A DNA stretch of 35,781 nucleotides from Acetobacter cerevisiae (lineage in GTDB: Bacteria; Pseudomonadota; Alphaproteobacteria; Acetobacterales; Acetobacteraceae), in contig NZ_LHZA01000129.1 in assembly GCF_001580535.1 (NCBI RefSeq), positions 1 through 35,781 of the forward strand, read 5' to 3'. Each line of letters starts with the position of its first letter. Position 1 is the stretch's first letter. The translations under genes and the position numbers were made by a program. Shown here one piece after another: positions 11,812 through 30,681 of this stretch. The notes below the pieces were generated by a model. That model saw only the letters and a program-made list of their open reading frames with translations, did not search any database and had not been told where the DNA came from.

Positions 11812-11851
11812 TTCCTATTCTTTCTTTTTTATGAAGTCTCATGCTTTGGGC

Positions 11852-13492: not shown

Positions 13493-13504
13493 AGTCCTAT
13501 TTCC

Positions 13505-14485: not shown

Positions 14486-14613
14486 AAGCGTTCTCCTGCA
14501 AACTTACAGTCGAAAGCATTACATAATTTCCAAAATAATAGCGAATCTTGTAACATAAAATGCGCGTGATATCAGAACTGACCTTCCCTATTTTTCTTTT
14601 TCTGGAGCAAGGA

Positions 14614-15537
14614 CTATACAAAGTCTCCTGACTGCGCCTCTCTTACCTCTTGAAATCGCTTATAAAATGCTGGCGTTGGTGCTGGTAGCCGCCCAGCATC
14701 ACCGCCACGACCATTTTCCGTCAACCATGCTTCTGATGCTGGCAATAAAGCCCGATAGATTGTGGCGCATAAAGTCTGAGCTCTATATCCGGCCCAGTCA
14801 AATGGCATGAGCGCTTCTGGAAGACGCGGATCACGCAAGGCAACACGCCGATATTCATGAATGAGCAGAGTGCGCGCAACAACGGCACTCAGTCCATCCT
14901 GATGGAACGCCCCTTTTTGCTCCGCATGGTCTGTGCACATTTTGGCAAGAGGCGAAAATATCTTTTCAAACCGCAGATAGGATCGGGCTAGATCATCAAG
15001 TGAAAAATATGCAGCAAGACATTGCATGGCTACCTGAGAGCCGTCCACGTCAAGGCCGAAGATGCCATCAGGCAAAGTGCCGTCATCCACCCCAAGCCAT
15101 GCCCCTGGGGCAAATGCTGTATATCCAGCTTCCCTCATCCGTGTAGCCACAAGAGCGGCTTCATCGCCCACCAAAGACCTTACGGATGCCGATGCAACGG
15201 CCAAGCGCAGCTTACGCTGGGTTTTAAACAAGAACGTTCCATAGATTCTTGGCTCTGCATCACGCGAGAGCGCCATGCCGCGGGACGACAAACAATAATA
15301 AGCGTTGCGCCCAATACGTGTACGCTCAACCCATCCATCCGCAGAAAGCCGTGATAACGCTGTTCTGACTGTGCCAGAGCCCACATCCATGGCGTGAAAA
15401 AGACTTAAAAGCGTCGGCAGTCCAATCGAACCACCACGAGGAAGAACCATATCCCCAAAAAAAGTCATGACAATGGACCATGTTCGGCTTGGCTCTGCCT
15501 GAAACAGCCGCAATATATCTTTGAGCGGTTTATCCAT
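14614..15537 (-). CDS. paaX: PaaX-family transcriptional regulator
   Basis: This regulator is 307 aa, close to the 316 aa of E. coli PaaX. The N-terminal winged-helix region contains GSIGLPTLLSLFHAMDVGSG and VRTALSRLSADGWVERTRIGR, typical of PaaX. The long C-terminal domain (LDDLARSYLRFEKIFSPL, LLIHEYRRVALRDPRLPEALMPFDWAG) matches the PaaX_C type. PaaX represses paa genes and is relieved by phenylacetyl-CoA. It lies directly upstream of paaA in the same direction. ATG 15537 gives the conserved N-terminus; an in-frame start 16 codons earlier is possible but has no support. The cluster also encodes a TetR-type PaaR, so control is double. Confidence 0.93.
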   Translation of the reverse strand: MDKPLKDILRLFQAEPSRTWSIVMTFFGDMVLPRGGSIGLPTLLSLFHAMDVGSGTVRTALSRLSADGWVERTRIGRNAYYCLSSRGMALSRDAEPRIYGTFLFKTQRKLRLAVASASVRSLVGDEAALVATRMREAGYTAFAPGAWLGVDDGTLPDGIFGLDVDGSQVAMQCLAAYFSLDDLARSYLRFEKIFSPLAKMCTDHAEQKGAFHQDGLSAVVARTLLIHEYRRVALRDPRLPEALMPFDWAGYRAQTLCATIYRALLPASEAWLTENGRGGDAGRLPAPTPAFYKRFQEVREAQSGDFV

Positions 15538-16341
15538 GATCCTGATATTCCTCGGCCAAAGCTTTTTCTGTGTGCTGAAATGCAAGAAGAATGGCGGTCC
15601 TGTCTACACTTTCCTTCCCAATAAGCCCCACTGAGGAAAAAAAAGCTGCCACAAACAATCACCGCAAAGGTCAGAGACCTCGACTTAGAATAAATTTATC
15701 AAAACATCATCATATATGGGAAAAAATTTCCTGTTTCTCTTCAAAAAAAACAGTTTATATATTTCCTTATACTGCAATAAGCATAGTTCTATTCATACGG
15801 TGATTACAAACGCTGTTTATCTACCTCATCGAACGGCTTGTATGACCACTCAATCGGACCATTGAACCATCCACGTTTATTGTCACAACCTTATTCCTGT
15901 TACGATAAATTATGTATTTAAAACAGTTTTTACCAATAATTACAGATACATAGAAATATTTTCTCTTCTTCCTGCCGTCTGAAAAAGTGTATCCGAATAA
16001 CAGCCTAACGCTAGCAGAACATCGAGTTCCCCCTCCTCAAAACTGGGCTGCGCTTCAAAAGGAAAGTGGCAATTTAAGATCCTCCCTCAGAAGTGATGGC
16101 GACAGAGACAGAAACTCTGTAATGTCAGAATCGTTATTGATCGTCCAGACGGTTAATTAAAGACCGCGTTGGTCTGAGGCGGGAGTGCTTACGTGAAGCC
16201 AACCCTTTTTATAGTGCACAACAGCGCTACGCTTGCCTTAAACAGAGACAAGCTACGCACGACCTGTTTTCGCCAAGTATTTAGAGGAAGCTTCTTGGTT
16301 TTCGTAAAACAGCGCGTAACTCGGACCAATGGTAAAGCGAC
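15538..16341. other. 800-bp AT-rich intergenic region with several short palindromes
   Basis: No credible gene is visible. The part at 15690-15990 is strongly AT-rich. Short perfect inverted repeats occur at 15719-15731 (GGAAA-N3-TTTCC), 15731-15753 (CTGTTT-N11-AAACAG) and 16161-16175 (AGACC-N5-GGTCT). The last could be a regulator site for paaI or for the following genes. The region separates the minus-strand paaX operon from the plus-strand paaI, so it should hold both promoters, but no hexamer pair is convincing. It may contain decayed mobile DNA. Confidence 0.4.
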
Positions 16342-16773
16342 ATGACCCCAGAAGAACGTGCCCGCGCAGCAGCCAGAGCCTTATGGACCAATGACAGGGC
16401 AAGCAAAAGCCTGGGCATGGAAATCCTGGAAGTAGGACCCGGCTTTTCGATAGTTGCCATGAATGCAACCATTGAAATGGCCAACGGCATCGGCACAATC
16501 CATGGTGGCTTTATCTTTGCTTTGGCCGACAGCGCATTTGCTGTCGCGTGCAATAGCTACAATGATCGTACAGTCGCCGCGCATTGCTCCATCACTTATC
16601 TGGCCCCCGGCGTGGCAGGCAAGCGCCTCCTCGCAAGCGCCCGGGAAATCAGTCGCGCAGGACGTTCCGGCCTGTACGACATTGAAATCAGTCAGGAAGG
16701 AACCATCATAGCGCAATTTCGCGGGCATTCCCGATCCATAGGCGGCCCCCTGTTCTCCGAGCCGTCTTCATAA
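16342..16773 (+). CDS. paaI: hotdog-fold acyl-CoA thioesterase
   Basis: This is a PaaI-type thioesterase of 143 aa. The active-site loop GTIHGGFIFALADSAFAVACNS contains the HGG signature followed by the acidic residue of the family, and SITYLAPGVAGKRL is the usual second strand block. PaaI releases CoA from ring-hydroxylated phenylacetyl-CoA and so prevents CoA trapping. Here it stands apart from the rest of the paa genes, next to the outer-membrane channel and alcohol/aldehyde dehydrogenase genes. The ribosome site before the ATG is weak (GGTAAAG). Confidence 0.9.
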   Translation: MTPEERARAAARALWTNDRASKSLGMEILEVGPGFSIVAMNATIEMANGIGTIHGGFIFALADSAFAVACNSYNDRTVAAHCSITYLAPGVAGKRLLASAREISRAGRSGLYDIEISQEGTIIAQFRGHSRSIGGPLFSEPSS

Positions 16774-16788
16774 CGGTCTTAATCAATA

Positions 16789-16858
16789 AACACGAAAAGC
16801 GTGTTGATAATAAAAAACACGGCAAACGTGTTCGCAACAAAAGCACGGTCAACGTGCT
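16789..16858 (+). promoter_or_regulatory. three regularly spaced 17-bp palindromes before the outer-membrane channel gene
   Basis: Three perfect 6+6 inverted repeats with five-base centres lie in a row: AACACG-N5-CGTGTT at 16789-16805 and at 16816-16832, and AGCACG-N5-CGTGCT at 16842-16858. They start 27 and 26 bases apart and are separated by A-rich spacers. The last ends four bases before the GGAGGA ribosome site at 16863. They could be a three-site operator array, or three hairpins in the leader RNA. Confidence 0.65.
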
Positions 16859-16872
16859 ACATGGAGGAACTT

Positions 16873-17928
16873 ATGGCACTGCCTTATTCTGCTGTGTCGA
16901 AGGGTAAAGGTTTCGTTCAGTCTTGTCGTGCCGCACAAGGCACCTCGCGGGACGACATCATGGCGTTTCAGCGCAAGAAACTGAGAAAAATTCATGACTC
17001 TCTTTTCAAAAACACACTGCCCTTTGTTTTGATCACATTGGCAGCGTGGAGCTTGCATGCTGCGCCACGCGCGGCTTATGCCACTGAGGGAGGTGGCAGT
17101 ACCTACCCCATGGGGGTCAATACCGTTTTGCCGGCCATCATGCCAGATCTCGGGAAAACCGAACTTCTGAATTATCTTACTGATATTCCGCTGACATCCC
17201 TCAACGACAGCCACGGTCGTCATTCCCCCGAAGCATTTGGAGGGAATCTGTTCGCGTTTGCGCCGCGCCTTTTGCATACATGGAATTTTGCACTAGGGGA
17301 CTTTCATTTTTCTACCGGACTTTCGCCAGTTTTCCAGCGCAAATATGTAAGTGTCGGTGGCCAGAACAGCTATACTTTCAACATGTCATCATTCGACCTG
17401 CAGGCCCTCTATGTCACTTGGTCGAAAGGAGACTTGCATTTACTGTTCGGACAGGATTTCTGGTTTCCGGGCTCCTCCTACAACCACTCTGATTTCTCGA
17501 ATGTTACTGCCACGCGCGTGACGTTCATGGAAGAAGGCGCCGTGACATGGACTCCTGGAAACTGGGAGTTTTCTCTTGAAAATACAGTTCAGATGTCAAC
17601 CCGTAACCGTGATACAGGCTACCATGATGGTACATTGTTCAACATGGATTATGGTATTTCCTACCGCCCGTTCCCCAAATTGCGCAAACTGCAGTTTGGC
17701 GTCAACGGCAACTGGGCCTACCAGACAAGTAACGACACCCTGAACGGGCAACGTTATATGGACGGCTACAAGCTGCGCAACTTCACCATAGGACCGCAGA
17801 TTGTTTATGATTTTTCCCCCGGTACAGCCGTAGTCCTTAAATGGCAGCATGCCCTGGATGCCCGCAATACAATTGGCGGCGACCGTTACTGGGTGGAATT
17901 TGCCTTACCGATCCACCTGTTCGACTGA
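16873..17928 (+). CDS. outer-membrane channel, phenol MetA-pathway (SphA-like) type
   Basis: This is a 351-aa protein with an export signal (LFKNTLPFVLITLAAWSLHA ending near AAYA) preceded by an unusually long positively charged N-terminus. The mature part starts GGGSTYPMGVNTVLPAIMP and goes on with alternating aromatic/polar segments such as FAPRLLHTWNF, LQALYVTWSKGDL and WEFSLENTVQM, which fit the putative transporters annotated as phenol meta-pathway outer-membrane proteins. It probably lets a hydrophobic aromatic substrate through the outer membrane. I chose ATG 16873 for its strong GGAGGA site. A later ATG at 16960 would give a more ordinary signal peptide and cannot be excluded. It leads an apparent operon with the aldehyde and alcohol dehydrogenases. 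Confidence 0.75.
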   Translation: MALPYSAVSKGKGFVQSCRAAQGTSRDDIMAFQRKKLRKIHDSLFKNTLPFVLITLAAWSLHAAPRAAYATEGGGSTYPMGVNTVLPAIMPDLGKTELLNYLTDIPLTSLNDSHGRHSPEAFGGNLFAFAPRLLHTWNFALGDFHFSTGLSPVFQRKYVSVGGQNSYTFNMSSFDLQALYVTWSKGDLHLLFGQDFWFPGSSYNHSDFSNVTATRVTFMEEGAVTWTPGNWEFSLENTVQMSTRNRDTGYHDGTLFNMDYGISYRPFPKLRKLQFGVNGNWAYQTSNDTLNGQRYMDGYKLRNFTIGPQIVYDFSPGTAVVLKWQHALDARNTIGGDRYWVEFALPIHLFD

Positions 17929-17966
17929 TCAATAATATCTTCCGTTCAGAACAGGAAGTTTAAAAT

Positions 17967-19460
17967 ATGGTTGAAGTTTCCATACTACCCCAAGTTCGCG
18001 ATTTCATGAATCGGTTGAACGGTCAGTTCATAAACGGCAAAACTGTTGTTTCCCAGCAGGACGAAGTGATCACCATCACCAATCCCGCTACGGATGAGGT
18101 GATTGCACATGTTGCCACGGCCACGAGCGGAGATATCGACTATGCGGTAGACTCCGCTCACCGTGCCTTTCACAGTGGCTGGGCGGACGTTTCTCCAGCC
18201 CAGCGCGGCCTGGTGCTGAACCGGCTTGCCGATCTCATGATCGCCCATCGTGAAGAACTGGCACAGATTGAGACCCTGACTTCGGGAAAGCTGATTACTT
18301 TATCACGCGCTTTCGAGGTCGATTATGCCGTATCGTTCCTGCGCTATTATGCAGGCTGGACAACACGAATTGAGGGCAAGACTGTTGCACTCTCTATCCC
18401 TTCCGCCAGTGGCGAGAAATATACCGGGCTGACACTGCGTGAGCCACTGGGTGTGGTGGCAGGCATTGTACCCTGGAATTTTTCGATCATGATTGCGGTC
18501 TGGAAATTCGGGTCAGCGCTGGCGTGCGGCTGCACAGCCGTCATCAAGCCCAGCGAGGTAACGCCCCTCACCATGCTACGTGTTGCAGAACTGGCGATTG
18601 AAGCAGGAATCCCTCCTGGTGTTCTAAACGTGATCAACGGCCCCGGGCAGCAGGTGGGTTACGCCCTCACAACACATCCCAAAATTGCCAAAGTCACGTT
18701 TACCGGCGGCATGGAAACAGGGGAAATTATCGGCACAGCCGCCCTTCAATCTGGCTTCAAACGGGTCACTCTCGAACTCGGTGGCAAGAATGCCGCTGGT
18801 TTCTTACCTGATGTTTCGCCAGAGAAGACGGTAGAGGGCATTATTGAGGCCGGTTTTCTCAATTCGGGTCAAGTCTGTGCTTCTGCTGAACGCTATTATG
18901 TCCATCGCTCCCTGATCAATGATGTAGCAGAGCAACTCGGCAAGCGCCTGGCGACCCTCACACCGGGTGATCCGATGGATGATGAAAGCCGTTTCGGCCC
19001 GCTGGCAAACAGATCTCATTTTAACAAAGTGATCGGGTATTTCACGCGAGCGCGTGACCAGAATCTGACATTCATCCATGGCGGCGGCGCATTTGATCTG
19101 CCTGGTTGCTACGTACAGCCAACGGCAGTACTGGCGCGATCAGAGAATGACGAACTGATGCGTCAGGAAGTATTCGGTCCAGTCGCGTCTCTTCTGGCGT
19201 ATGACAGCGTGGACGAACTGGTGACACTCATGAACGACTCACCATACGGTCTGGCTGCCAGCCTCTGGACCAACAATCTATCGCAGGCCCTGCGGCTCAT
19301 TCCGCGTGTTGAAGCGGGTACAGTCTGGGTCAACATGCACAATTATCTCGATCCCGCCATGCCCTTTGGCGGTACAAAAGGATCTGGAATCGGTCGTGAA
19401 TTCGGAAGTGCGTTCATCGATCATTTCACGGAAATCAAATCAGTGATCATGCGATATTAA
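17967..19460 (+). CDS. NAD-dependent aldehyde dehydrogenase, phenylacetaldehyde dehydrogenase-like
   Basis: This is a standard aldehyde dehydrogenase of 497 aa. The catalytic Cys304 is in NSGQVCASAER, the general base Glu270 is in TLELGGKNAAG, and the cofactor segments PWNFSIMIAVWKFGSALACG and FTGGMETG are present. The overall sequence is closest, by my reading, to the FeaB/StyD phenylacetaldehyde dehydrogenase group. It has no signal peptide, so it acts in the cytoplasm. Its product, phenylacetate, would be the substrate of PaaK in this window. AGGAAG lies eight bases before the ATG. It sits 38 bases after the channel gene and 52 bases before the alcohol dehydrogenase. Substrate is inferred from context. 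Confidence 0.82.
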   Translation: MVEVSILPQVRDFMNRLNGQFINGKTVVSQQDEVITITNPATDEVIAHVATATSGDIDYAVDSAHRAFHSGWADVSPAQRGLVLNRLADLMIAHREELAQIETLTSGKLITLSRAFEVDYAVSFLRYYAGWTTRIEGKTVALSIPSASGEKYTGLTLREPLGVVAGIVPWNFSIMIAVWKFGSALACGCTAVIKPSEVTPLTMLRVAELAIEAGIPPGVLNVINGPGQQVGYALTTHPKIAKVTFTGGMETGEIIGTAALQSGFKRVTLELGGKNAAGFLPDVSPEKTVEGIIEAGFLNSGQVCASAERYYVHRSLINDVAEQLGKRLATLTPGDPMDDESRFGPLANRSHFNKVIGYFTRARDQNLTFIHGGGAFDLPGCYVQPTAVLARSENDELMRQEVFGPVASLLAYDSVDELVTLMNDSPYGLAASLWTNNLSQALRLIPRVEAGTVWVNMHNYLDPAMPFGGTKGSGIGREFGSAFIDHFTEIKSVIMRY

Positions 19461-19512
19461 AAACAATAACCGGAGCACTCTTCGCAAATCAGCACCGGTC
19501 GAGAGCAATATC

Positions 19513-21696
19513 ATGAAGCACTTTTTCCTGTTTAGGGCGACCTTATATATGGTCGTCATCCTTACCTTGTCCGCTACCCATCTATCGCAAAGCCAGGCTG
19601 CGACGGATGATCCTCTCGTCACACAAGCGGAGGAATCGCCACAGAACTGGCCGGCCCATGGACGCACCTATAACGAACACCGTTATAGCCCGCTAAACCA
19701 GATCAACACGGAAACAATTGGCCGGCTCAAACTGGCGTGGTCAAGCAACTTTGACACCAATCGCGGCCAGGAAGGCACGCCGCTGGTGGTCAATGGCATC
19801 CTCTACGCCACGACAAACTGGAGCAAGGTTCGCGCCTATGATGGAGCGAGCGGCAAGTTGCTCTGGAGTTATGATTCTCAAGTGCCGGGACCATCCGCCG
19901 TGCGCGGCTGTTGTGATACCGTTAATCGTGGGGCAGCCTACTGGAACGACAAGATTTTTGTAGGAACATTCGATAACCGTCTGATCGCTCTGGATGCTAA
20001 AACCGGCCACAAAATATGGGAGGTGGACACAATTCCAAAGGACGCGTGGCTGGGCGATATCAGATCCTACATTACCGATGGCGCACCACGCGTAGCCAAA
20101 GGCATAGTGATGATCGGCAATGGTGGGGCGGAGTTCGGCGTACGCGGCTTCGTCTCGGGCTTCGATGCTGAAACCGGGGCGCTGAAATGGCGCTTCTACA
20201 CCACGCCAAACCGTTCAAATCAACCCGACCACGCAGCATCTGACGCCCCCCTGATGACCATCGCCTATCGTACCTGGGGGCCGCATGGTGCATGGATCCA
20301 CTCCGGCGGTGGCGGAACGGTTTGGGATTCCATCGTTTATGATCCGCAGACCGATCTTGTCTATCTTGGCGTCGGCAACGGCTCACCGTGGAACTATAAG
20401 CAACGTTCTGATGGGATTGGGGACAATCTCTTCCTTGGGTCAATTGTGGCCATTCGACCAGAAACCGGTGAATATGTCTGGCATTTCCAGGAAACGCCTC
20501 AGGACCAGTGGGATTATACCTCGACCCAGCACATTATGACCGCCGATCTCGAAATCAACGGCAAAAAGCGTCATGTCCTGCTTCACGCACCAAAAAACGG
20601 TTTCTTCTACATTGTAGACGCGCAAACAGGTGAATTTATCTCCGCAAGGAACTATGTGCCTGTCAACTGGGCCAAAGAGATTGATCCCGTAACGGGCCGC
20701 CCCAACATCGTTCCTGACGCACTGTATTCACTTACGGGCAAACCTTGGGCAGGCCTTCCCGGGGATCTGGGCGGACATAATTTTGCAGCCATGAGCTATA
20801 GCGCCCAGACTGGCCTTGTCTATATTCCTGCCCAACAGATCCCGATGGTGTTTACCCCCGACGCCCACCCCTTGAAGCACAAAGGCTTGAACCTCGGAAT
20901 CAGCATGCAGGGCCTTCCCGATGATCCCGCTATCCGCGACGGTTTTCTCAAGACCCTCACAGGGTGGCTGATTGCGTGGGACCCCAAACAACAGAAGGAA
21001 ATCTTTCGGGTCGATCACAGGGGGCCATGGAACGGGGGCCTCCTTTCCACGGGAGGCAACCTGATCTTCCAGGGGCTAGCGAACGGCGAATTCCATGCCT
21101 ATGACGCAAGGAATGGTGCAGATCTTTTCAATTTCAATGCACAGAGCGGGATTATCGCACCGCCAATCTCCTATGAAGTGAATGGCAAGCAATATATTGC
21201 TGTAGAAACCGGTTGGGGTGGCATCTATCCATTGCTGATGGGACGAACCGCGCTATCCTCGGGCTGGACGGTCAATCATTCCCGTCTGCTCGTTTTCGCG
21301 CTGGATGGTACAGCAGAACTCCCACCACAAAATGACAGGGGGATGATACCGGTCAAGCCGCCAGAACAATTCGATGCACAGCAGGCTGCCGCAGGGTACC
21401 AGCTTTACGAAACGTTCTGTCAGGTCTGCCATGGTGACAACGCGCTTTCTGGTGGTGTCCTTCCGGACCTGCGCTGGTCTGGTGCCATTCATCACTTGGC
21501 GGGATTCCAGAATGTTGTGGGTCGAGGAGCCCTGACCGCGTACGGCATGGCACGCTTTGATGACATCCTTTCTCGCCAGGACATTGAAAAAATCCGCCAG
21601 TTCCTGATCAAACGGGCCAATGAGACCTACGCGCGAGAAGTAGCAGCCCGCGCCAACCCTCAAAACATCCCACAAGGCCGCGCGATTACCGAATAA
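19513..21696 (+). CDS. PQQ-dependent quinohaemoprotein alcohol dehydrogenase
   Basis: This is a secreted enzyme of 727 aa. A signal peptide (MKHFFLFRATLYMVVILTLS to about SQA) precedes an eight-bladed PQQ propeller with tryptophan-docking repeats (DAKTGHKIWEVD, DAETGALKWRFY, RPETGEYVWHFQ). The vicinal disulfide CC is in VRGCCDTVNRG, and the catalytic Asp334 is in QWDYTSTQ. A C-terminal cytochrome c domain has CQVCH (CxxCH, near residue 636) and the likely axial Met in YGMARF. This fits soluble type II alcohol dehydrogenases. Residue 336 is Thr, not the extra Asp of lanthanide-type enzymes, so calcium use is predicted. With the preceding aldehyde dehydrogenase it would oxidise a primary, probably aromatic, alcohol in the periplasm. 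The ribosome site is weak. Confidence 0.9.
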   Translation: MKHFFLFRATLYMVVILTLSATHLSQSQAATDDPLVTQAEESPQNWPAHGRTYNEHRYSPLNQINTETIGRLKLAWSSNFDTNRGQEGTPLVVNGILYATTNWSKVRAYDGASGKLLWSYDSQVPGPSAVRGCCDTVNRGAAYWNDKIFVGTFDNRLIALDAKTGHKIWEVDTIPKDAWLGDIRSYITDGAPRVAKGIVMIGNGGAEFGVRGFVSGFDAETGALKWRFYTTPNRSNQPDHAASDAPLMTIAYRTWGPHGAWIHSGGGGTVWDSIVYDPQTDLVYLGVGNGSPWNYKQRSDGIGDNLFLGSIVAIRPETGEYVWHFQETPQDQWDYTSTQHIMTADLEINGKKRHVLLHAPKNGFFYIVDAQTGEFISARNYVPVNWAKEIDPVTGRPNIVPDALYSLTGKPWAGLPGDLGGHNFAAMSYSAQTGLVYIPAQQIPMVFTPDAHPLKHKGLNLGISMQGLPDDPAIRDGFLKTLTGWLIAWDPKQQKEIFRVDHRGPWNGGLLSTGGNLIFQGLANGEFHAYDARNGADLFNFNAQSGIIAPPISYEVNGKQYIAVETGWGGIYPLLMGRTALSSGWTVNHSRLLVFALDGTAELPPQNDRGMIPVKPPEQFDAQQAAAGYQLYETFCQVCHGDNALSGGVLPDLRWSGAIHHLAGFQNVVGRGALTAYGMARFDDILSRQDIEKIRQFLIKRANETYAREVAARANPQNIPQGRAITE

Positions 21697-22080
21697 GACA
21701 CGGTATCATCTTGTGCCGGGCAAGTATCCAGAGAGAGCCGAGGGCGTAATCATGCTTCGATGGTATTATTGTTCTGGTGAAAATTTTCCTAATGTCGTGG
21801 AGGGAGACCATCAGATAAGTCGGGGTCACGCCAACGAAAATCCATCGTATAGCGAGCGCATTCGAGCACAACGAACTCAAACATTCGCTTTCCCTGTGAT
21901 CCGTTCTCTCTCCTGCTGCTCCAGAGACAAAGCGTTAACCTGGCAGGGCGGCAATTTTCCGGGCCCAATTTGGGCCCACCCCGATGTGATATCCAGTTGT
22001 ATCTAGTGACAGTCACTGATATTAAATACCTTGTTATCAATAATTTAAACGTACGAACCCGGTCATTTAGCTTATACTTA
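21697..22080. other. intergenic region next to the tRNA-Glu fragment, with two palindromes
   Basis: No gene is recognisable. Two perfect palindromes are visible: GGGCCCAA-T-TTGGGCCC at 21961-21977 and AGTGAC-A-GTCACT at 22005-22017. The following 30 bases are AT-rich and run into the tRNA-Glu fragment. The region may be the end of an integrated element and could contain recombinase-binding sites. Confidence 0.4.
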
Positions 22081-22129
22081 TCGCCCTCTCACGGCGACAA
22101 CACGGGTTCGAATCCCGTACGGGACGCCA
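22081..22129 (+). other. 3' fragment of tRNA-Glu (anticodon CTC), candidate island attachment site
   Basis: The segment reads as anticodon stem TCGCC, loop CTCTCAC (anticodon CTC at 22088-22090), stem GGCGA, a short variable region, T-stem ACGGG, loop TTCGAAT, CCCGT, then acceptor ACGGGAC, discriminator G and CCA. This is the 3' part of a bacterial tRNA-Glu with all stems intact. The 33 bases before it do not contain GTCCCGT to pair with the acceptor, nor a normal D-arm, so it is not a working gene. A detached tRNA 3' end is what a tRNA-targeting integrase leaves at the far end of an island. The intact copy would lie to the left of this window. Confidence 0.8.
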
Positions 22130-22192
22130 TATCTTCTCTGAAGATACACTGGCTAGTTTACTAAAAATTCCAGAATTAAAGCGATGATTTTG

Positions 22193-22210
22193 GATCCATG
22201 AAAATGGATC
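22193..22210 (-). terminator. hairpin downstream of nupC, possible terminator
   Basis: A perfect seven-base-pair stem, GATCCAT and ATGGATC, has a four-base loop. On the minus strand it is followed by CAAAATC, a weak U tract. It lies 116 bases after the nupC stop. Confidence 0.4.
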
Positions 22211-22325
22211 ACAAAGCCGCACGCTTTTTGCTCCGGCCTTTCGCCTGATGCGTAAAAGGCCTTAAGGGCACTGGGTTTCTCAGCGTTTGCCGCTTCGCTT
22301 TTTTCACAAAACGGCGTGTGCCGCC

Positions 22326-23561
22326 TTACGCAAGAATAATCCCCGCAATCGCAGCACTCATAAAATTGGAGAGCATGCCCGCCAGCACCGCACGGGCGCT
22401 GATCTGGGCCAGTTCTGCACGGCGCTCGGGGCACTGGCTCCCAAAGGCTGCCACAAGAATGCCAATGGAACTTAAATTGGCAAAGCCGCAGAGTGCAAAC
22501 GTCGCGATCGCCCCACTGCGTGCAGAAAGCACTCCATTCTGCAAAGACGGGGCAAGATGCAGGTAGGCGACAAATTCGTTAATAACGAGCTTCAGCCCCA
22601 GCACAGAGCCAACAATCGTGCATTCCCCGGCAGGCACACCCAACAGCCAGGCAATGGGGGAAAACAGCAGGCCGAAGAGATATTCCAAAGAGAGGAAAGG
22701 CTTATGAATGGCCTGCCCTAACGCCTGAAACCCACTGTTGATCAGCGCAATCAGCCCGATAAAAGCCACCAGTGTCGCCGCCACGGCGACGGCTGTTTTG
22801 GTGCCTTTCAAAGCGCCTTCGGTAATAGTTTCAAAAAAAGCCTGATTGTAGGAGGAACGCCCGGCGGCCAGCGTATCCACCGGACTGCCGGCTGGGCGGG
22901 GGGCAAGGATTTTTGCAAACATCATCCCACCCGGAATGGCCATGAAAGATGCTGCCACCAGATAATGAGCCGGCACCCCTAACCCAACATAGCCAACCAG
23001 CGTTGCGCCGGAAACGGAAGCCACACCACTGCACAGCACGCTGAACAGTTCCGTGGGGGCCATCGTCCGCAGGTAAGGGCCTAATGCCACCGGCAGCTCA
23101 CTCTGGCCGATAAAAATGGTGATGATCGCCCCAAAGGATTCAACCGGCGAGGTGCCCAGAATCTTCTGCAGGATCTTTCCTGTTGTGCGGGCAAAAATCT
23201 GCATGACGCCGACATGAAACAGGATGGCAATCAGCGCGCTAACATAAACCAGAGAGGGCAGCACCCTGAAGGCAAAAACGAAGCCATCATTCGGGAAGAC
23301 GGTCGCCATTTTGTCACTGGCCAGTGCGCCAAAAAGGAAACGCGCCCCCTCATCCCCGCAGGAGAGGATTTTTGTCACACCTTCGGACAGAGACCACAAA
23401 ATCTGCTGCCCCACAGGCACGCGCAGGACAAGCAGACCAATTGCGACCTGAGCCAGCAGGCAGCTCAGAACCGTGCGAAGGCTGATATTTTTCCGGTCTT
23501 TTGAAAACAAGACCGCAATACCCAGAAGCAGGAGAATACCGAGACATCCACGACTATGCAC
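22326..23561 (-). CDS. nupC: concentrative nucleoside transporter (NupC/CNT family)
   Basis: This inner-membrane proton-nucleoside symporter has 411 aa, with many hydrophobic helices from residue 5 on. Family motifs visible are FGAIITIFIGQSELPVALGPYL in part, PAHYLVAASFMAIPGGMMFAK, EGALKGTKTAVAVAATLVAFIGL and NEFVAYLHLAP, together with ALCGFANLSSIGI near the C-terminus; these are the nucleoside-binding helices of CNT proteins. The start is GTG 23561 with AAGGA eight bases before it. It follows the RNase T2 gene by 89 bases on the same strand, which couples nucleoside uptake with periplasmic RNA breakdown. Confidence 0.93.
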   Translation of the reverse strand: MHSRGCLGILLLLGIAVLFSKDRKNISLRTVLSCLLAQVAIGLLVLRVPVGQQILWSLSEGVTKILSCGDEGARFLFGALASDKMATVFPNDGFVFAFRVLPSLVYVSALIAILFHVGVMQIFARTTGKILQKILGTSPVESFGAIITIFIGQSELPVALGPYLRTMAPTELFSVLCSGVASVSGATLVGYVGLGVPAHYLVAASFMAIPGGMMFAKILAPRPAGSPVDTLAAGRSSYNQAFFETITEGALKGTKTAVAVAATLVAFIGLIALINSGFQALGQAIHKPFLSLEYLFGLLFSPIAWLLGVPAGECTIVGSVLGLKLVINEFVAYLHLAPSLQNGVLSARSGAIATFALCGFANLSSIGILVAAFGSQCPERRAELAQISARAVLAGMLSNFMSAAIAGIILA

Positions 23562-23650
23562 TGAATGATCCTTCTCTCAAGGTCTGCATTTCCACATCTC
23601 CTGAGCCCATGATGACAAAAAATGCGCCTGCTCGTACGTGCAGCAGGCTC

Positions 23651-24457
23651 TTACAGACGCACACCCGCAGCAGGCCATTGCGGAACAAGGAACTGCGCGG
23701 GGCAGTTATCCTGCATCTGAGGACTACTGAGGAACGCATCCGTTTTTGGAAATTTGTCCAGCGAAGACGGTTTGAGAGTGAACCAGATCTGGGAGAGAAC
23801 GGCCTCCCCTTGTGGCGTCTTGTTACACTGGAACTGCACACCCCGCTCCGGCAGAGGGCCGGTATCCACTTCAATCTGGCTGGTCAGTTCGGCTTTGGTA
23901 ACGCGCGTGCCTGCCTCAGTCGTCAGATGCTGCGCGGAGGGAAGTGCCGCAAACCGATCCCGCAGCCGGGAGGCGACGGAGAAAAACTGCTCTCCCTCCA
24001 TCCCGAAACACTGCACATGCTTGGTGTATTCATGCGCCACCAGACTGGAGTGCGTGTGAGCCACCACCTCTGACAGACGATGCGACAAACCCTCGGAAAG
24101 CGTGGGCGATGCAGACGCCGCATCTCCGTCATACAGGCTGCACCCTTTGCGCCACCATGTCGTAACGGGCACCTGCGCTCGTATGAGGTCAGACGGACGG
24201 GACGCCCAAAGCCCATGCAGCCCGATGAGCGGCGTCTGGGGTTGATCCGCCTGACAGCTATTCCCTTCCGGCCCCGTGCAAAAACCCGGTTGCCATGTGA
24301 GGGCAAGGGTATAATGCCCAAAATCTCCGTGTCGTGGCGCTGTGAGCAAGAGATCCCCCGCACCACCTGCAGGCGATGCAGAAGGATGCTGAGCGCACCC
24401 GGATAGCAGAAAACAGGCAGCCATCACGCCGGAAAAAAGAAACTGTACTGCCCGCAT
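23651..24457 (-). CDS. ribonuclease T2 family protein, lipoprotein
   Basis: This is an RNase T2 (RNase I-like) enzyme of 268 aa. The two catalytic blocks are present: LIGLHGLWAS (first His) and AHEYTKHVQCFG (second His, Glu and Lys region), with the preceding YTLALTWQPGFC block. The signal peptide ends in LLSGCAQ, a lipobox, so the protein is probably anchored in a membrane facing the periplasm. It cuts RNA to nucleotides through 2',3'-cyclic intermediates. It is upstream of nupC on the same strand and divergent from ndt-cdd, which supports a scavenging role. Confidence 0.9.
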   Translation of the reverse strand: MRAVQFLFSGVMAACFLLSGCAQHPSASPAGGAGDLLLTAPRHGDFGHYTLALTWQPGFCTGPEGNSCQADQPQTPLIGLHGLWASRPSDLIRAQVPVTTWWRKGCSLYDGDAASASPTLSEGLSHRLSEVVAHTHSSLVAHEYTKHVQCFGMEGEQFFSVASRLRDRFAALPSAQHLTTEAGTRVTKAELTSQIEVDTGPLPERGVQFQCNKTPQGEAVLSQIWFTLKPSSLDKFPKTDAFLSSPQMQDNCPAQFLVPQWPAAGVRL

Positions 24458-24561
24458 AATCTGTTTGATCCTTACGCAGAAAGGGGAAAGGAAAAAGCGC
24501 TATCCTGCTGATGTGGAAAGCTATTAATGTTGCTTACATCGTGTGCGGTGTCTATGATTTT

Positions 24562-24583
24562 TATAATGGAAACGTATTGTTTC
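24562..24583 (+). promoter_or_regulatory. TATAAT box followed by a 15-bp palindrome (GAAAC-N5-GTTTC)
   Basis: A consensus -10 hexamer TATAAT at 24562-24567 is followed at once by the perfect inverted repeat at 24569-24583, which resembles LacI-family operator symmetry. No good -35 lies at the right distance. A second possible pair is TTGCTT at 24530 with TATGAT at 24553. The site is in the divergent region between the RNase T2 gene and ndt. Confidence 0.4.
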
Positions 24584-24650
24584 TCATAAATTACAGAACA
24601 CTCTGCGCCAGCCAGAACAGCAGCACGGCCGTCTGAACAGGGAAGACTTT

Positions 24651-25283
24651 ATGACCGAAACCCCGGATTACCCCAAGGTTTACCTTGGTGGAGACCTTGT
24701 CTTCAGGAAAAACGCACAAGAGCTTTTCAAAGCCTTCAAAGAGATGTGTCTGGCCGTCCGCCTGCACGGCGTCTCGCCTTTTGATGGTCAGGATGAGGTC
24801 GAAGCCCTGCCGCCCGGCAAGGAAACCAGTCTGCTGATAGCCCGGCTGGATCGCGGCCTGATGGATGAGTGTGACGCCGCCCTGTTCTGTATCGATCCCT
24901 TTCGCCGCGCGGCGGATATGGACCCCGGCACCGCAGTGGAAATTGGCTACATGGCCGCCCAGAACAAGCCGATGGCGGGCTACACAGTAGATGGCCGCTT
25001 TTACCATGAAAAAGTGCAGACCTATTTTGAGCAGGCCTGGCACACACCGCTGACGGAAGAGCGCCCGCACGATGGAGCCAGAGTGCGCTGGCTGGATGCG
25101 GACAGCATGATCGTGCACTCGGAAGGCCTGTTACAAAACGCCATGGTGGAAGGCTTCATCCGGCAGGCGGGCGGCGATATCGCGGTTGCAGATAATATCA
25201 GGAGCGCGTTTCGTGCTGCCGCCTCTGATCTGGCGGGGCTGATTTATGGCACCGCTGAGAAAAAGGATACCTCCCATGGATGA
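24651..25283 (+). CDS. nucleoside 2-deoxyribosyltransferase
   Basis: This 210-aa protein belongs to the nucleoside deoxyribosyltransferase family, cytoplasmic enzymes that move deoxyribose between bases or hydrolyse deoxynucleosides. The start KVYLGGDLVFRKNA is the typical first strand and loop. DECDAALFCIDPFR and MDPGTAVEIGYMAAQNKPM contain the acid and the catalytic Glu (in VEIGYM). The length is slightly above the usual 150-170 aa because of a C-terminal extension. GGGAAG precedes the ATG. Its stop overlaps the cytidine deaminase start by eight bases, so the two are coupled. Confidence 0.9.
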   Translation: MTETPDYPKVYLGGDLVFRKNAQELFKAFKEMCLAVRLHGVSPFDGQDEVEALPPGKETSLLIARLDRGLMDECDAALFCIDPFRRAADMDPGTAVEIGYMAAQNKPMAGYTVDGRFYHEKVQTYFEQAWHTPLTEERPHDGARVRWLDADSMIVHSEGLLQNAMVEGFIRQAGGDIAVADNIRSAFRAAASDLAGLIYGTAEKKDTSHG

Positions 25284-25710
25284 GAAAACCGTAGCAACCC
25301 TGACGCAGAAAGCGCTGGCGGCTCGTAGCAATGCTTACGCGCCCTATTCCCGTTTCCTCGTGGGCGCCGCCTTAATCACAGAAGACGGTCAGGTTTTTTC
25401 CGGCTGCAATGTTGAGAACGCGGCCTATCCGGAAGGCGTGTGTGCGGAAGCCGGGGCGATTTCCGCCATGATCGCCGCAGGCGGGTCCCGCAAAATTGCA
25501 ACGATTATGGTCGCTGGCAAAGGACCTGCCCCCTGTTTGCCGTGTGGTGGGTGCCGCCAGAAAATCCGTGAATTTGCAACGCAGAGAACCTGCGTTCTGG
25601 TAGTGGATGAAAACGGCACAGAGTTGTTTAAAGACGACCTTCATGCCCTCCTCCCCCATTCTTTCGGCCCTGAAAACCTTGAGACCGGATCTGACAAAAA
25701 CCCGGCCTGA
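25276..25710 (+). CDS. cdd: cytidine deaminase
   Basis: This is a homotetrameric-type cytidine deaminase of 144 aa. YAPYSRFLVGAALITEDG and FSGCNVENAAYPEGVCAEAGAI hold the substrate-binding NxE and the first zinc ligand with catalytic Glu (CAE). PCLPCGGCRQKIREF supplies the other zinc cysteines. It converts cytidine and deoxycytidine to uridine forms. ATG 25276 lies inside the end of the deoxyribosyltransferase gene. A longer in-frame start is possible but lacks the normal N-terminus. Confidence 0.95.
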   Translation: MDEKTVATLTQKALAARSNAYAPYSRFLVGAALITEDGQVFSGCNVENAAYPEGVCAEAGAISAMIAAGGSRKIATIMVAGKGPAPCLPCGGCRQKIREFATQRTCVLVVDENGTELFKDDLHALLPHSFGPENLETGSDKNPA

Positions 25711-25746
25711 CGCGCATTACCAGATAGACTTTTGCAGGAATTCCGC

Positions 25747-26676
25747 ATGAAGATCATTATCGATACAGACCCCGGGCAGGATGATGCGCTCACCATCCTG
25801 CTGGCCCTCGCCAGCCCGGAAATTGAACTTCTGGGTGTGACGACGGTTGCCGGGAACGTGCCAGTTGCGCAAACAACTGAAAACGCCATCAAGACTCTTG
25901 ATCTTGCAGGCCGCACGGATATTCCCGTGCACGCAGGGGCAGATCGCCCCCTCATTCGCCCCGGTGTGACAGCAACGCATGTGCATGGCAAGACCGGGTT
26001 TGAAGGGGTTGATCTGCCCCCGCCGAGCCGCGAGGCAACACCCGGCCATGCCGTTGATTTCATTATCCGCACGGTTATGGAAAACCCGCCGGGTAGCATA
26101 ACACTTTGCACAATCGGACCGCTGACCAATATTGCTCTGGCACTCGCCAAAGAGCCTGCCCTGCGTGAGCGGATTGGGCAAATTGTCATGATGAGCTGTG
26201 CGTTTTCCGAAGTTGGGAATATTACCCCCACCGGGGAATTTAATATCTATGTGGACCCGCATGCTGCACGGATGGTGTTTGACTCCGGTGTGAAGATTGT
26301 CGTGTTCCCGCTGGATGTCACGCATCAGCTCCACACCAGCAAGGCGCGCCTTGAGCGTATTGAAGCCATCCCCAACCGGATTGGCCCGATTGTGGCTGCG
26401 TGGCTGCGGTTTGAAAAACGCTTTGAAGCCACAAAATATGGCACAGATGGCGGCCCGCTGCATGACCCCAACACCGTGCTCTGGCTGCTCAAACCAGAAC
26501 TCTACCGTGGCCGTCAGGTTAATGTGGAAATTGAGACCGACAGCGCGCTAACGCTGGGTATGAGCGTGGTGGACTGGTGGGGCATTACCGACAAAAAGAA
26601 AAATGCCTTGTTCATGCGGGAAGTTGACGTGGACGGCGTATACGATCTGATTATCGAACGCCTGTCTGCCCTGTAA
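25747..26676 (+). CDS. inosine-uridine preferring nucleoside hydrolase
   Basis: This is a nucleoside N-ribohydrolase of 309 aa. The calcium-binding signature DTDPGQDDAL is at the N-terminus (residues 6-15), and TVAGNVPVAQTTENA and the C-terminal histidine/aspartate block DGGPLHDPNTVLW complete the active site. It splits ribonucleosides to base and ribose in the cytoplasm; it could correspond to a Rih enzyme, but I cannot assign which. ATG 25747 is preceded by AGGAATTCCGC. It lies 36 bases after cdd, as the third gene of the plus-strand group. Confidence 0.93.
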   Translation: MKIIIDTDPGQDDALTILLALASPEIELLGVTTVAGNVPVAQTTENAIKTLDLAGRTDIPVHAGADRPLIRPGVTATHVHGKTGFEGVDLPPPSREATPGHAVDFIIRTVMENPPGSITLCTIGPLTNIALALAKEPALRERIGQIVMMSCAFSEVGNITPTGEFNIYVDPHAARMVFDSGVKIVVFPLDVTHQLHTSKARLERIEAIPNRIGPIVAAWLRFEKRFEATKYGTDGGPLHDPNTVLWLLKPELYRGRQVNVEIETDSALTLGMSVVDWWGITDKKKNALFMREVDVDGVYDLIIERLSAL

Positions 26677-26686
26677 CACAGCTCTG

Positions 26687-26711
26687 GTCGGAGCATAGAC
26701 CACGCTCCGGC
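26687..26711. terminator. hairpin between convergent genes, possible terminator
   Basis: An eight-pair stem, GTCGGAGC and GCTCCGGC (one G-U pair), has a nine-base loop and lies between the convergent nucleoside hydrolase and purine nucleoside permease genes. There is no clear T run on either side. Confidence 0.35.
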
Positions 26712-26760
26712 CTGCCTTATCAAACACCCGACAAAATCACCAAAAAACGCAATACATCCC

Positions 26761-27840
26761 TCACGGCGCTGTTGTGGCAACCGAGGGAATCTGCGTGCGG
26801 TAGCGGTCCCAATGCGCGACGAGTTCAGCAATGACCGAAGCGCCTGCGCGTTCGTTATTATCAAAAGCGACCACCTGCCCCGGCCCTTCATCCCCCATGG
26901 ATTGCGTAATGGACATATGGGGCGGCGGCATGCTGAAGTTGCTTCCTGAACGCAAAACCATGACCCTCTGCGGGTCAATCACGCCAAAGCGCGCCAGCAC
27001 GCGCATTTCCACCTGATTGGTCTGGCTTTCTTCATTGGTCATAACAAACTGACCCTTATTTCTGGTCCACAGACGCACCCAGTCCTCCGCCCATGTATTG
27101 CGCTGCGCCCCATGCCAGTAGCGGAGTGCGCCTAATGTTTCGCCTTCCAGAATAGCAGGCGGCTTCTGGGCATTCGGATACCCTGCCCACTGCGCCCGAC
27201 GCTCAGCCAGAGCAGGATCATCCCGCAGAGGCGTCGTGCGGCTAATGGTATAAGCCCAGTGCTCCAGTCCACGATTCAGCGGATAAGCTTTTGTCAGTTC
27301 ATCAACATCCGTCACAGACCCATAATGGTTGGGGTCACTGGGGAGCGTGTTGGGTTTATCGGCACCAATCGCATACAGGCCATAAGGCCAGCCTTTGGGA
27401 ATTGTGCGATCATCTATTTCACGCAGTGCATCTCCATCCACAACCCAGCGCGCCCATGCGACACTGCCTGCTGAGGCCACGTTCGGATTGACCCCGGAAA
27501 TACCGGTAAAAATCCAGTATGTATGATGAAGGTCAAAATGCGGATCAAGCGCCAGTGCTGCAAGGTCTGTCACCCCGTCCTTTAAAACAAGGCCATACAC
27601 CCCATCCGTGTTGCTCCGCAGAATCTGGGTCGGAATACCAGCGACCGGCATACGCTTGTCCATATGCAAACGCTCAACCCAGAACTGATATTCTCCCGGA
27701 GCGTCCCCGGTGTCCGCACCATTTTCCCACCCGGCAACCACAATCACTTTTGGTTCCAGACGGGGCGCAGCTGTTGCAACAGAGCATGGTGCAACAGCAG
27801 TTGTGACCGCCAGCCCGCAGCATAAGGCAAGAGCTTTCAT
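26761..27840 (-). CDS. purine nucleoside permease (NUP family), secreted
   Basis: This 359-aa protein has an N-terminal signal peptide (MKALALCCGLAVTTAVAP to about TAA). The mature part begins RLEPKVIVVAGWENGADTGD and contains HHTYWIFTGISGVNPNVASAGSV in pieces, then VMTNEESQ and LRSGSNFSMPPP, all characteristic of the NUP family named after a yeast purine nucleoside permease. The fold resembles nucleoside phosphorylases, so a periplasmic binding or cleaving role is as likely as transport. In-frame start codons also exist at 27852 (ATG) and 27858 (TTG); 27840 is preferred because GGA lies seven bases upstream. It adds purines to the neighbouring nucleoside genes. Confidence 0.85.
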   Translation of the reverse strand: MKALALCCGLAVTTAVAPCSVATAAPRLEPKVIVVAGWENGADTGDAPGEYQFWVERLHMDKRMPVAGIPTQILRSNTDGVYGLVLKDGVTDLAALALDPHFDLHHTYWIFTGISGVNPNVASAGSVAWARWVVDGDALREIDDRTIPKGWPYGLYAIGADKPNTLPSDPNHYGSVTDVDELTKAYPLNRGLEHWAYTISRTTPLRDDPALAERRAQWAGYPNAQKPPAILEGETLGALRYWHGAQRNTWAEDWVRLWTRNKGQFVMTNEESQTNQVEMRVLARFGVIDPQRVMVLRSGSNFSMPPPHMSITQSMGDEGPGQVVAFDNNERAGASVIAELVAHWDRYRTQIPSVATTAP

Positions 27841-27889
27841 TGTTTGATCCATACTCAAGAGACACTTTTTAGAGAATATTATGGTCTGA

Positions 27890-27920
27890 GACGGTATTTC
27901 GGAGAGCCCAAAATACCGTC
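27890..27920. terminator. strong hairpin downstream of pepN, possible terminator
   Basis: A perfect ten-base-pair stem, GACGGTATTT and AAATACCGTC, encloses 11 bases. The T tract (TTTTA) is on the plus-strand side, although both flanking genes are on the minus strand. It separates the aminopeptidase from the permease gene. Confidence 0.5.
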
Positions 27921-27975
27921 TTTTATCCGCATCAAAGTGCAGGAGAGCTAGCCCCTGCCCTATGGCAACCAGCGT

Positions 27976-30609
27976 TTAGTGCTGCGCACCCAGCCATGTC
28001 TTGAGCTGGGACTGAGCAGCCTGCATGGCCTCCTTACGCGCCCCGATTTCACTCAGGGCTTTTGCCGTAGCAATTTTACCACCCGTCGTTTTGCTGGAAG
28101 ACGGGTCTGCTTCAAGCGCCTGCGCTACGTCCGGATTGTCAGAATAGGCGGCAATCTGCGAAAGGAACCCATCCTGAGACCATGGGGCAAGATGCGTTCT
28201 GATTTCAGCCTCATGCTGCTTGACCAGCTGCCAGACCAGATCCGGGTTTTCGCTCTCATCCGCCACACGGGCCAGTGCCATGGCAATACGTCCGTTGGGA
28301 ATAGCGCCGCTGTAAGCCAGTGCGACGTTTTTCTCAATCAGAGTCGGATTGGTCGCCGCTGCCAGCGCATTGAACAGACGCAGCTTGACCTCTGTCGCCT
28401 GCGTGGTGCGAACTTTTTCAGCCATGACCTTATAGGTTTTCTCATCTGCGTGCGTCATGGCAATACGCGCCACAACACCGACCAGATCAGGCTTTAAAGA
28501 TGCCGGATCAGCCTGCCAGCGGGCAAAGCGCTTCCCTGCTTCCGCCACCACTGCCGGATCTTCAAACCTGCCGAGCACAGAAATAACGGACGGACGCAGC
28601 ATGGTATCCAGCACGTTTTCATCCGCTTTCTGGTCCCAGCCCAGACGCGCCAGAACAGGTGTGAGCTGCTTACGGGCGTAGGCGCGGAAGGTTGCGCGGT
28701 CCCGGCTGCCTTTCAGATACTGGTCCAGCGTTTCAAACCGGCCAATAATTTCCTGAAGAACAGCAATATCGCTTTCCTGCGCGGAGAGCAGGCTGTCCGC
28801 CAGATCCATATAAGCAGAAAGTGGGGCCTGCCCGGAACGGAACAGGGCGAACTGGTCCCCCAGCAGGTTGGCTCTGTCCACGGGTGCGAAATGCGTTGCA
28901 TTTTTCAGCAGGGATGCGAAGGCCGGTGCATTGTACTGCACGCGATAATAGCCGCTTTCTCCCAGATTCAGCTTGAGCGGTGCATCACACCCCACAACGC
29001 TGAGCGTCTGCGGCGCTTTACCCAGAACCAGCTTTTGTGTCGCCAGACCCGGGCCACCCGCCACAACAGGCACCATCCATGTCTGGGCCGCCGGATGCGG
29101 GTCATGAATAGTAAAGCGGCTTCGTGTCAGGGTATAAACCGTTTTGCCAGCCTTACAGGCAGACGCCACATTGACCAGTGGAATACCAGGCTGTTCGGTA
29201 AAGCTGCGAGCGACAGGGCCAACATCCAGACCGGATGTTTTAGACAGCGCCTGCCACAAATCCTGACTGGTGGTGCTGCTATAGGCGTGGGACTTCATGT
29301 AAAGACGCATCCCGTCACGGAAATGGTCTTCACCCAGCCAGCCTTCCAGCATGCGGATAACCAGTTCACCCTTGCCGTAACTGATGCTGTCAAAAGCCGA
29401 GTTGGCTTCACTCACATTATGAATGGTCTGCTGGATGGGGTGCGTGGATGGCAGGGCGTCCGTGCCCATGGTTTCCTCACGCGTTTCATGCTGACGCGGC
29501 CAGATGTCCCAGTCCGGGTTCATCTTGTCCGTTGCCTTGATCTCCATCCAGGAGGCAAAGCCTTCATTCAGCCAGATATTGTCCCACCAGCCCATGGTCA
29601 CGAGGTCACCCGACCACTGATGCGCCATTTCATGCGCGACAACTTCATAAATCAGCTCGCGCGTGCGCGGTGTACTGTTTTTAGGGTCAAACAGCAGGAC
29701 GTTGTCGATATAAGTCAGCAAGCCCCAGTTTTCCATCGCGCCGGCCTGATAGTTCCCGGGAATGGCTACCATGTCCATTTTGGGAAGAGGATATTTCACG
29801 CCAAAATAGCTGTTGTAATAAGGAAGAATTTTTTCTGAGGCATGCAGGGCATACTCTCCCTGCCCTTCCAGGCCGGACGGTGCATAAACGCCCAGCGGCG
29901 TGCCATCCGCCTGCCCCTGCACGGACTTCATATCCCCTGCAACCAGCGCCAGCAGATAGGTGGACATCCGCGGCGTTGTAGCAAAGGAGACGCGCTTCTG
30001 GCTCGTGCCCTCCGGCGTGCTCTGCGTCACCGGCATGTTGCTGACGGCAACAGCCTCTTTAGGCAGCGTGACATTTAGCTGGAAGGTTGCCTTAAAGGCC
30101 GGCTCATCCCAGCCGGGGAACATGCGGCGGGCATCGGCCACTTCAAACTGCGTGACCAGCATCCGCTTTGTCTCGCCGGAAGGGGCTGTGTAGTCATCCA
30201 CATAAATGCCGTTCGGCGTCTTCAGGATCGGCCCGGAATAGGTGATGACCAGCGTATGCGCACCTTTGCTGACCTTGGCCGGAAAATGCAGGGTCGCGGT
30301 CTCGGCCGCATCGTCCTGCGTAATGGTGGCCTTCACGCCATTATCCAGAACAGCCTCGGCCAGATGCAGGCCTGCCTGATTGAGGGTGACATCCGTTGTG
30401 GGGGTGCGCACATCAACCTGAATGGTTTCCTGCCCGGCCAGTTTCAGGTTGTCTATATCTGTTGAGATATTGATACCGTAAGAGACAGGCACAACAGTTT
30501 TTGGCAACTGCCCCCCGGCGCGCTGGAAGGAGAACACCTGTTCCGCACAGACCGGGCCAGCCAGCGGCAGCCCCGCCAGCAGGGTTGTCAAAGTCAGAAG
30601 CCGACGCAT
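27976..30609 (-). CDS. M1-family metalloaminopeptidase (aminopeptidase N type), exported
   Basis: This zinc aminopeptidase of 877 aa has a signal peptide (MRRLLTLTTLLAGLPLAGPVCA), so it acts in the periplasm or outside. The exopeptidase motif GAMEN is present (QAGAMENWGLLTY), and HEMAHQW with NEGFA 18 residues later gives the HExxH-x18-E zinc site. An N-terminal beta-saddle domain precedes it, and a helical ERAP1-like C-terminal domain follows (DRANLLGDQFALFRSGQ onward). It removes N-terminal residues from peptides. AGGAGA precedes the ATG. It is divergent from the nitrate transporter gene. Confidence 0.93.
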   Translation of the reverse strand: MRRLLTLTTLLAGLPLAGPVCAEQVFSFQRAGGQLPKTVVPVSYGINISTDIDNLKLAGQETIQVDVRTPTTDVTLNQAGLHLAEAVLDNGVKATITQDDAAETATLHFPAKVSKGAHTLVITYSGPILKTPNGIYVDDYTAPSGETKRMLVTQFEVADARRMFPGWDEPAFKATFQLNVTLPKEAVAVSNMPVTQSTPEGTSQKRVSFATTPRMSTYLLALVAGDMKSVQGQADGTPLGVYAPSGLEGQGEYALHASEKILPYYNSYFGVKYPLPKMDMVAIPGNYQAGAMENWGLLTYIDNVLLFDPKNSTPRTRELIYEVVAHEMAHQWSGDLVTMGWWDNIWLNEGFASWMEIKATDKMNPDWDIWPRQHETREETMGTDALPSTHPIQQTIHNVSEANSAFDSISYGKGELVIRMLEGWLGEDHFRDGMRLYMKSHAYSSTTSQDLWQALSKTSGLDVGPVARSFTEQPGIPLVNVASACKAGKTVYTLTRSRFTIHDPHPAAQTWMVPVVAGGPGLATQKLVLGKAPQTLSVVGCDAPLKLNLGESGYYRVQYNAPAFASLLKNATHFAPVDRANLLGDQFALFRSGQAPLSAYMDLADSLLSAQESDIAVLQEIIGRFETLDQYLKGSRDRATFRAYARKQLTPVLARLGWDQKADENVLDTMLRPSVISVLGRFEDPAVVAEAGKRFARWQADPASLKPDLVGVVARIAMTHADEKTYKVMAEKVRTTQATEVKLRLFNALAAATNPTLIEKNVALAYSGAIPNGRIAMALARVADESENPDLVWQLVKQHEAEIRTHLAPWSQDGFLSQIAAYSDNPDVAQALEADPSSSKTTGGKIATAKALSEIGARKEAMQAAQSQLKTWLGAQH

Positions 30610-30652
30610 GCCATAATTCTCCTAAAAATCCGTTTATCTTTTCGAAATCATT

Positions 30653-30681
30653 TTGACTTCGGATTATTCCGATCCTACTAT
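30653..30681 (+). promoter_or_regulatory. sigma70-like promoter of the nitrate cluster with an internal palindrome
   Basis: TTGACT at 30653-30658 and TACTAT at 30676-30681 are 17 bases apart. The spacer contains the perfect inverted repeat TCGGA-TTAT-TCCGA at 30659-30672, a candidate operator. It lies in the divergent pepN/transporter region, about 155 bases before the transporter start. Confidence 0.45.

Follow-up and report, generated by a model that had tools for sequence, protein, structure and literature searches.

A displaced tRNA-Glu 3' fragment as the probable right attachment site of a genomic island carrying paa genes in Acetobacter cerevisiae

The Locus and its Features

The window analyzed here is the whole 35,781-nucleotide stretch of contig NZ_LHZA01000129.1 of Acetobacter cerevisiae (assembly GCF_001580535.1). 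Its features, listed from left to right, are the following:

1..967 (no strand assigned): insertion sequence (IS) with an IS4/5-type transposase ORF (195-647), CTAG on both sides, which splits the cargo
968..21713 (no strand assigned): cargo of the window, including paa genes, regulators, a thioesterase, a porin-like gene, an aldehyde dehydrogenase and a PQQ alcohol dehydrogenase
10687..14485 (-): PaaE, PaaD, PaaC and PaaA genes, for phenylacetyl-CoA epoxidase
13190-13492: putative PaaB ORF, by resemblance judged by eye
17967..19460 (+): aldehyde dehydrogenase, the best NCBIfam match being phenylacetaldehyde dehydrogenase, below the cut-off
19513..21696 (+): PQQ-dependent alcohol dehydrogenase with a cytochrome c domain, TIGR03075, above the cut-off
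21722..21781 (no strand assigned): IS-end remnant of 60 bases, between the cargo and the element end
21945..22081 (+): right end of an element family, conserved at 82-87% identity in 10 copies across 8 of the 49 genomes
22082..22129 (+): tRNA-Glu 3' part with anticodon CTC and A43, the probable right attachment site and the point of departure from the empty site of genome G047
22130..35781 (no strand assigned): right flank, with nupC, RNase T2, cytidine deaminase, purine nucleoside permease, M1 peptidase and others

The tRNA-Glu Fragment

The anticodon arm (CTC), T arm, 3' acceptor strand and CCA of a tRNA-Glu all lie within 22082-22129, which we take to be bases 28-76 in tRNA numbering, base 22081 being, on the same assumption, T27. 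The fragment agrees with a 48-base tRNA-Glu 3' reference at 47 of 48 positions; elsewhere in the window the score reaches no more than 27, and in 30 mononucleotide shuffles no more than 29. The tRNA-Glu fragment is beyond chance. The window yields no tRNA calls in ARAGORN and nothing at the gathering score in Rfam, and no cloverleaf is obtained in the predicted fold of 22049-22129. The 5' half of the tRNA is missing, and the upstream bases are occupied instead by a conserved element end, in agreement with the earlier note, which had described a detached tRNA-Glu(CTC) 3' end with no 5' half upstream. That note had begun the fragment at 22081; the extent from 22082 to 22129 stands, but base 22081 is also part of the conserved element end, and is assigned to it here. 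A displaced 3' tRNA fragment is present at one end of the probable island.

The Conserved Element End

The approximately 137 bases directly upstream of the fragment form the end of an element family. A search of 49 genomes of the genus, the own genome included, with 21945-22131 as the query, returned 10 long matches, each of which terminates in the tRNA-Glu 3' part, while all the other matches cover the tRNA part only. The match begins further left in two relatives, at 21798 and 21817. A scan for the motif of this end recovered nine contigs, from Acetobacter tropicalis (three), A. indonesiensis, A. persici, A. fallax, Acetobacter sp. AN02 and Gluconobacter vitians (two).

At least three other kinds of upstream sequence, grouped by eye and each found in at least two genomes, abut the same tRNA part, and some fragments directly precede sequence of the kind found behind an intact tRNA-Glu at other sites, suggesting tandem arrays. 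The three tRNA-Glu sites of G056 are intact-looking or partial, and the element end of the window type is absent from this genome. Both tRNA-Glu genes are busy integration sites, which receive elements of several families and in tandem arrays.

The single contig of G041 carries an element end with its tRNA-Glu fragment at about 3233.2 kb of C1 (L120 18255(-)), approximately 250 and 802 kb away from its two intact tRNA-Glu genes, and the distance from both suggests rearrangement. Eleven Acetobacter plasmid records also contain an unannotated 47-base piece of the tRNA-Glu 3' part (95.7%; for example, NC_013211.1, 148768-148814), which resembles an attachment site on the plasmid.

Empty Sites in Related Genomes

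In G047, the right flank of the window borders the tRNA-Glu(TTC) gene, and so does, in G045, the part that begins with the M1 peptidase. The G047 site has an intact tRNA-Glu(TTC) in place of the fragment, and this tRNA is followed directly by the nupC flank (nupC, 100%), the window aligning without a break from 22082 to 28843, the end of the G047 stretch compared, at 97.2%. Left of 22082, the window has no alignment to G047 within the 40 kb compared. An own contig, C85, matches the opposite flank of this G047 tRNA (96.1% over 3.4 kb). The second empty site is found in G045, which lacks nupC, and in which an intact tRNA-Glu(TTC) lies between the C85 flank (86-88%) and the M1 peptidase (82%). 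The empty attachment site proposed in the earlier note, with tRNA-Glu joined to nupC, is therefore found in G047, and the same two flanks surround tRNA-Glu(TTC) in G045. The paaA gene is absent from both genomes. The alternative that the flanks were swapped in G047, and not in the own lineage, was set aside, since the same TTC flanks are present in G045.

Relatives of nupC occur in 16 of the 49 genomes, in nine cases at 85% identity or more. In G048, the gene lies 15.5 kb from a tRNA-Glu fragment, and in the stretches examined around nupC in G008, G056, G023, G009, G004 and G001, no tRNA-Glu was called, the contig of G023 starting 131 bases from the gene. Only close relatives are thus informative for this site.

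The Integrase and the Left End

G012 contains a complete short copy of the element. An intact tRNA-Glu(CTC) is followed, within 40 bases, by the start of a 387-aa integrase ORF (PF00589), and the conserved end with its fragment lies approximately 5 kb on from the intact tRNA-Glu, with a second integrase ORF past that fragment.

In the own genome, contig C85 terminates in tRNA-Glu(TTC) and contig C96 in tRNA-Glu(CTC), both within the T loop; the two genes are intact as far as the contigs run, and neither contig reaches the window. The G012 integrase matches, with its 3' half, the extreme ends of own contigs C149 and C135 (90% identity each), and C15 holds a remote relative (31%). Beyond the last base at which they differ, C85 and C96 share their final 26 bases, and the same holds for C149 and C135. 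Two tRNA-Glu genes followed by the same integrase start, collapsed by the assembler, would explain all four contig ends. Since the tRNA-Glu and integrase genes stop at contig ends, it is from these ends that we infer their linkage to the left side of the window. As candidates for the intact tRNA-Glu and integrase that the earlier note had expected on the left, the own genome thus offers two tRNA-Glu genes cut at contig ends and two integrase 3' halves, all of them outside the contig of the window, to which the contig ends would link them.

C149 also carries a second integrase and a RelB-like antitoxin (L074 5289-8285), and C135 a PIN-domain protein and pieces of a helicase (L075 42-3076). No conjugation genes were found among the genes scanned on the window, C24, C149 and C135. 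A further own contig, C101, a candidate for the right flank of the own CTC locus, matches material of G048 and G047 some kb from their CTC genes, and does not reach a tRNA.

The Cargo

The window encodes PaaA, PaaC, PaaE, PaaK, PaaZ, a 3-oxoadipyl-CoA thiolase and the PQQ alcohol dehydrogenase above the NCBIfam cut-off; PaaX and phenylacetaldehyde dehydrogenase are best matches yet below it, and PaaD was assigned through Pfam. The 968-21713 portion has counterparts at 96% identity in G008 and G056, in which the shared block extends over 34 kb. The other part of this cargo is found on own contig C24 (301-13733, 95% to G008), which encodes HpaD, HpaE, HpaH and HpaI above the cut-off and HpaA, HpaB and HpaG below it, two of its ten proteins having no match. 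C24 and the window meet at the CTAG-flanked IS, and the CTAG is single in G008 and G056. The first 176 bases of C24 are those of the window, which indicates more than one copy of such an IS sequence.

The paa and alcohol-oxidation genes of the island proposed to the left of 22080 are there, but the cargo is larger than the window, the block continuing on C24 with the hpa genes. The lower GC content anticipated for this side is confirmed (51.0% in 1-22080 against 57.2% in 22131-35781), and the codons agree, with a mean third-position GC of 0.49 in 12 genes on the left and 0.63 in 10 on the right.

The paaA gene is found in four of the 49 genomes, that is, the own genome, G008 (100%), G056 (99%) and G009 (59%), and the cargo is accessory and shared across species. 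In G008, the block ends approximately 0.5 kb from a truncated integrase of the element family (residues 5-146, 84%), and in G056, neither a tRNA nor an integrase of this family was found within the 60 kb examined, the tie between cargo and element family being seen in two of three genomes. The segment adjacent to the cargo lies on its right side in G008 and on its left in G056 (L041 3117-3874; G056 C66 180770-181915), suggestive of a permutation or relocation of the block. By its genes, the cargo would probably support growth with phenylacetate and 4-hydroxyphenylacetate, and perhaps 2-phenylethanol, as substrates.

Three other origins of the cargo were considered and rejected. Its insertion in the middle of an older element had been prompted by a match of window 673-845 near the G041 element end, and was dropped because, with the window flanks joined, the plus-strand alignment was limited to the element end; the match in G041 is an IS in the opposite orientation. 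For a plasmid origin, there were three plasmid records with short paaA matches, and for a viral origin, the element-end motif was found in none of the viral contigs scanned.

A Model of Integration

The segment at 22082-22129 is very probably the right attachment site of a tyrosine-integrase genomic island that uses tRNA-Glu genes. In this process, the integrase would recombine the tRNA 3' part of the element with a chromosomal tRNA-Glu gene, the copy brought by the element completing the tRNA on the left, while the displaced piece would remain on the right, beside nupC. The left end would comprise the tRNA-Glu of C85 or C96 and the collapsed integrase start, followed by C135 or C149, and C24, the IS and the 968-21713 cargo would all lie in one island. 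This model draws on the observed fragment, the element end, the two empty sites and the G012 copy, in which an integrase, an intact tRNA-Glu and the same end occur together; the rarity of paaA, the lower GC on the left and the truncated integrase near the G008 cargo also speak for it. Against it count the fact that no contig connects the window to an integrase or to an intact tRNA, the allele of the fragment, which is not that of the TTC gene at its flank, the IS-end remnant between cargo and element end, and G056, which lacks this element end and whose cargo has neither a tRNA nor an integrase of the family within the 60 kb examined. The right edge marked by a tRNA, as the earlier note had claimed, is borne out by the empty sites in G047 and G045, and by the conserved end in 8 of 49 genomes. 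For a genus of food fermentation, this would fix one edge of an acquired catabolic island.

The Anticodon Mismatch

The fragment has C34 and A43, whereas the TTC genes of own C85 and of G047 have T34 and G43, and the CTC gene of own C96 has C34 and G43. It agrees with the TTC gene of its site at 46 of 48 bases, and with the CTC gene of G048 at 48 of 48; identity also extends over 50-51 bases with the CTC genes of G018, G063 and G002, and over 45 bases with that of G023. The assignment of the source to a tRNA-Glu(CTC) gene stands as far as the anticodon is concerned, but the flank is that of tRNA-Glu(TTC), and the fragment is out of place there. A CTC fragment beside a TTC flank requires either that the exchange took place 3' of base 43 or that the two tRNA-Glu loci swapped sequence. 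The former, with the element bringing the CTC half, needs fewer events; the latter, a later joining of fragment and flank between the two genes, is the one that the sequences appear to favor, given the unlike fragments on alike element ends.

The island may have entered tRNA-Glu(CTC) first, and have acquired the TTC flank through a later exchange between loci within bases 44-76, for example, by inversion, a history that is plausible, if somewhat doubtful. It would account for the identity of the fragment to the CTC genes of the five genomes above, and the own CTC gene on C96 has G43 together with T27, which would fit the displacement of an A43 half of its own, but G014 and G015 show the same combination in TTC genes. 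The element ends most similar to each other (G041 and G019, 89%; G044 and C199 of G008, 89%) bear different, host-like fragments, which suggests that the fragment derives from the host, although the tree of the element ends is weakly supported. The two tRNA-Glu genes are opposed, and 73-92 kb apart, in G002, G003, G013, G018 and G046; the exchange itself would be an extra event, with no direct sighting.

Another reading accepts the fragment and the element end as real, and takes the paa cargo to be foreign to the element, the two having been brought together by an IS or a rearrangement. The IS-end remnant at 21722-21781, the sequence of which follows a three-ORF IS in G041 (with an IS66-like layout, and putatively of that family), lies between them, so an IS could have joined the two, and the cargo of G056 lies away from tRNA-Glu, with the neighboring segment ordered differently from that of G008. 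However, the G008 cargo also adjoins a truncated integrase of the element family, and the entire left side is missing from the empty site of G047, which makes this reading unlikely. It is highly improbable that the fragment is a decayed tRNA gene, or a remnant left by chance or by an IS, unrelated to integration: IS sequences do occur at 1-967 and 21722-21781, but G047 and G045 have an intact tRNA at that very base, and the upstream end is conserved in eight genomes.

On the preferred reading of an integrase-driven island, the mismatch raises a broader idea, which is distinctly unlikely as it stands, that the tRNA-Glu of acetic acid bacteria is a shared dock, at which elements exchange the anticodon-bearing 3' half and thereby rewrite the glutamate isoacceptor of a locus. 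The own genome, G047 and G045 have a CTC gene at a locus where G008 and G056 have a TTC gene, and this, together with the CTC piece at a TTC flank, would represent the traces of isoacceptor swaps, if the idea is true. Only TTC anticodons were counted by hand in 14 of the 44 genomes with at least two intact tRNA-Glu matches (L207, L208; of the 49, four have no match and one a single match), and point mutation explains these genomes equally well. The mismatch makes both the place of the integrase cut and a possible change of tRNA anticodon testable.

Comparison with Known Systems

No report of tRNA-Glu islands or paa islands in Acetobacter was found in the open-access literature searched. Islands are reported for A. 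cerevisiae KSO5 in a paper the text of which contains no word starting with "phenylacet" (PMC13209655). The cargo resembles known paa and hpa clusters in PaaA, PaaC, PaaE, PaaK, PaaZ, the thiolase, HpaD, HpaE, HpaH and HpaI, all above the cut-off, but differs from them in forming one mobile block of approximately 34 kb, together with the PQQ alcohol dehydrogenase, which is near-identical in 3 of 49 Acetobacter genomes. The paa-hpa block is thus a rare, exchanged trait in this genus.

The Islander collection comprises 3919 islands, of which 2083 have an anticodon-centered site and 1836 a T-stem site, with a table entry of 125 for tandems of two or more (PMC4383910). The probable island in the window shares with those described there a displaced 3' fragment as an end mark, probably with an intact tRNA as the other, a PF00589 integrase beside the tRNA (in G012), cargo in between, and tandem arrays (in relatives). 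It differs from them in that its left end has no physical link, and that the allele of its fragment does not match the tRNA gene of its flank. The replacement of a tRNA gene by that of the integrating element is noted for Sinorhizobium (PMC11476347). The end of an aromatic-catabolism island at tRNA-Glu is a classic layout, and the anticodon of the other tRNA-Glu gene is its unexpected trait.
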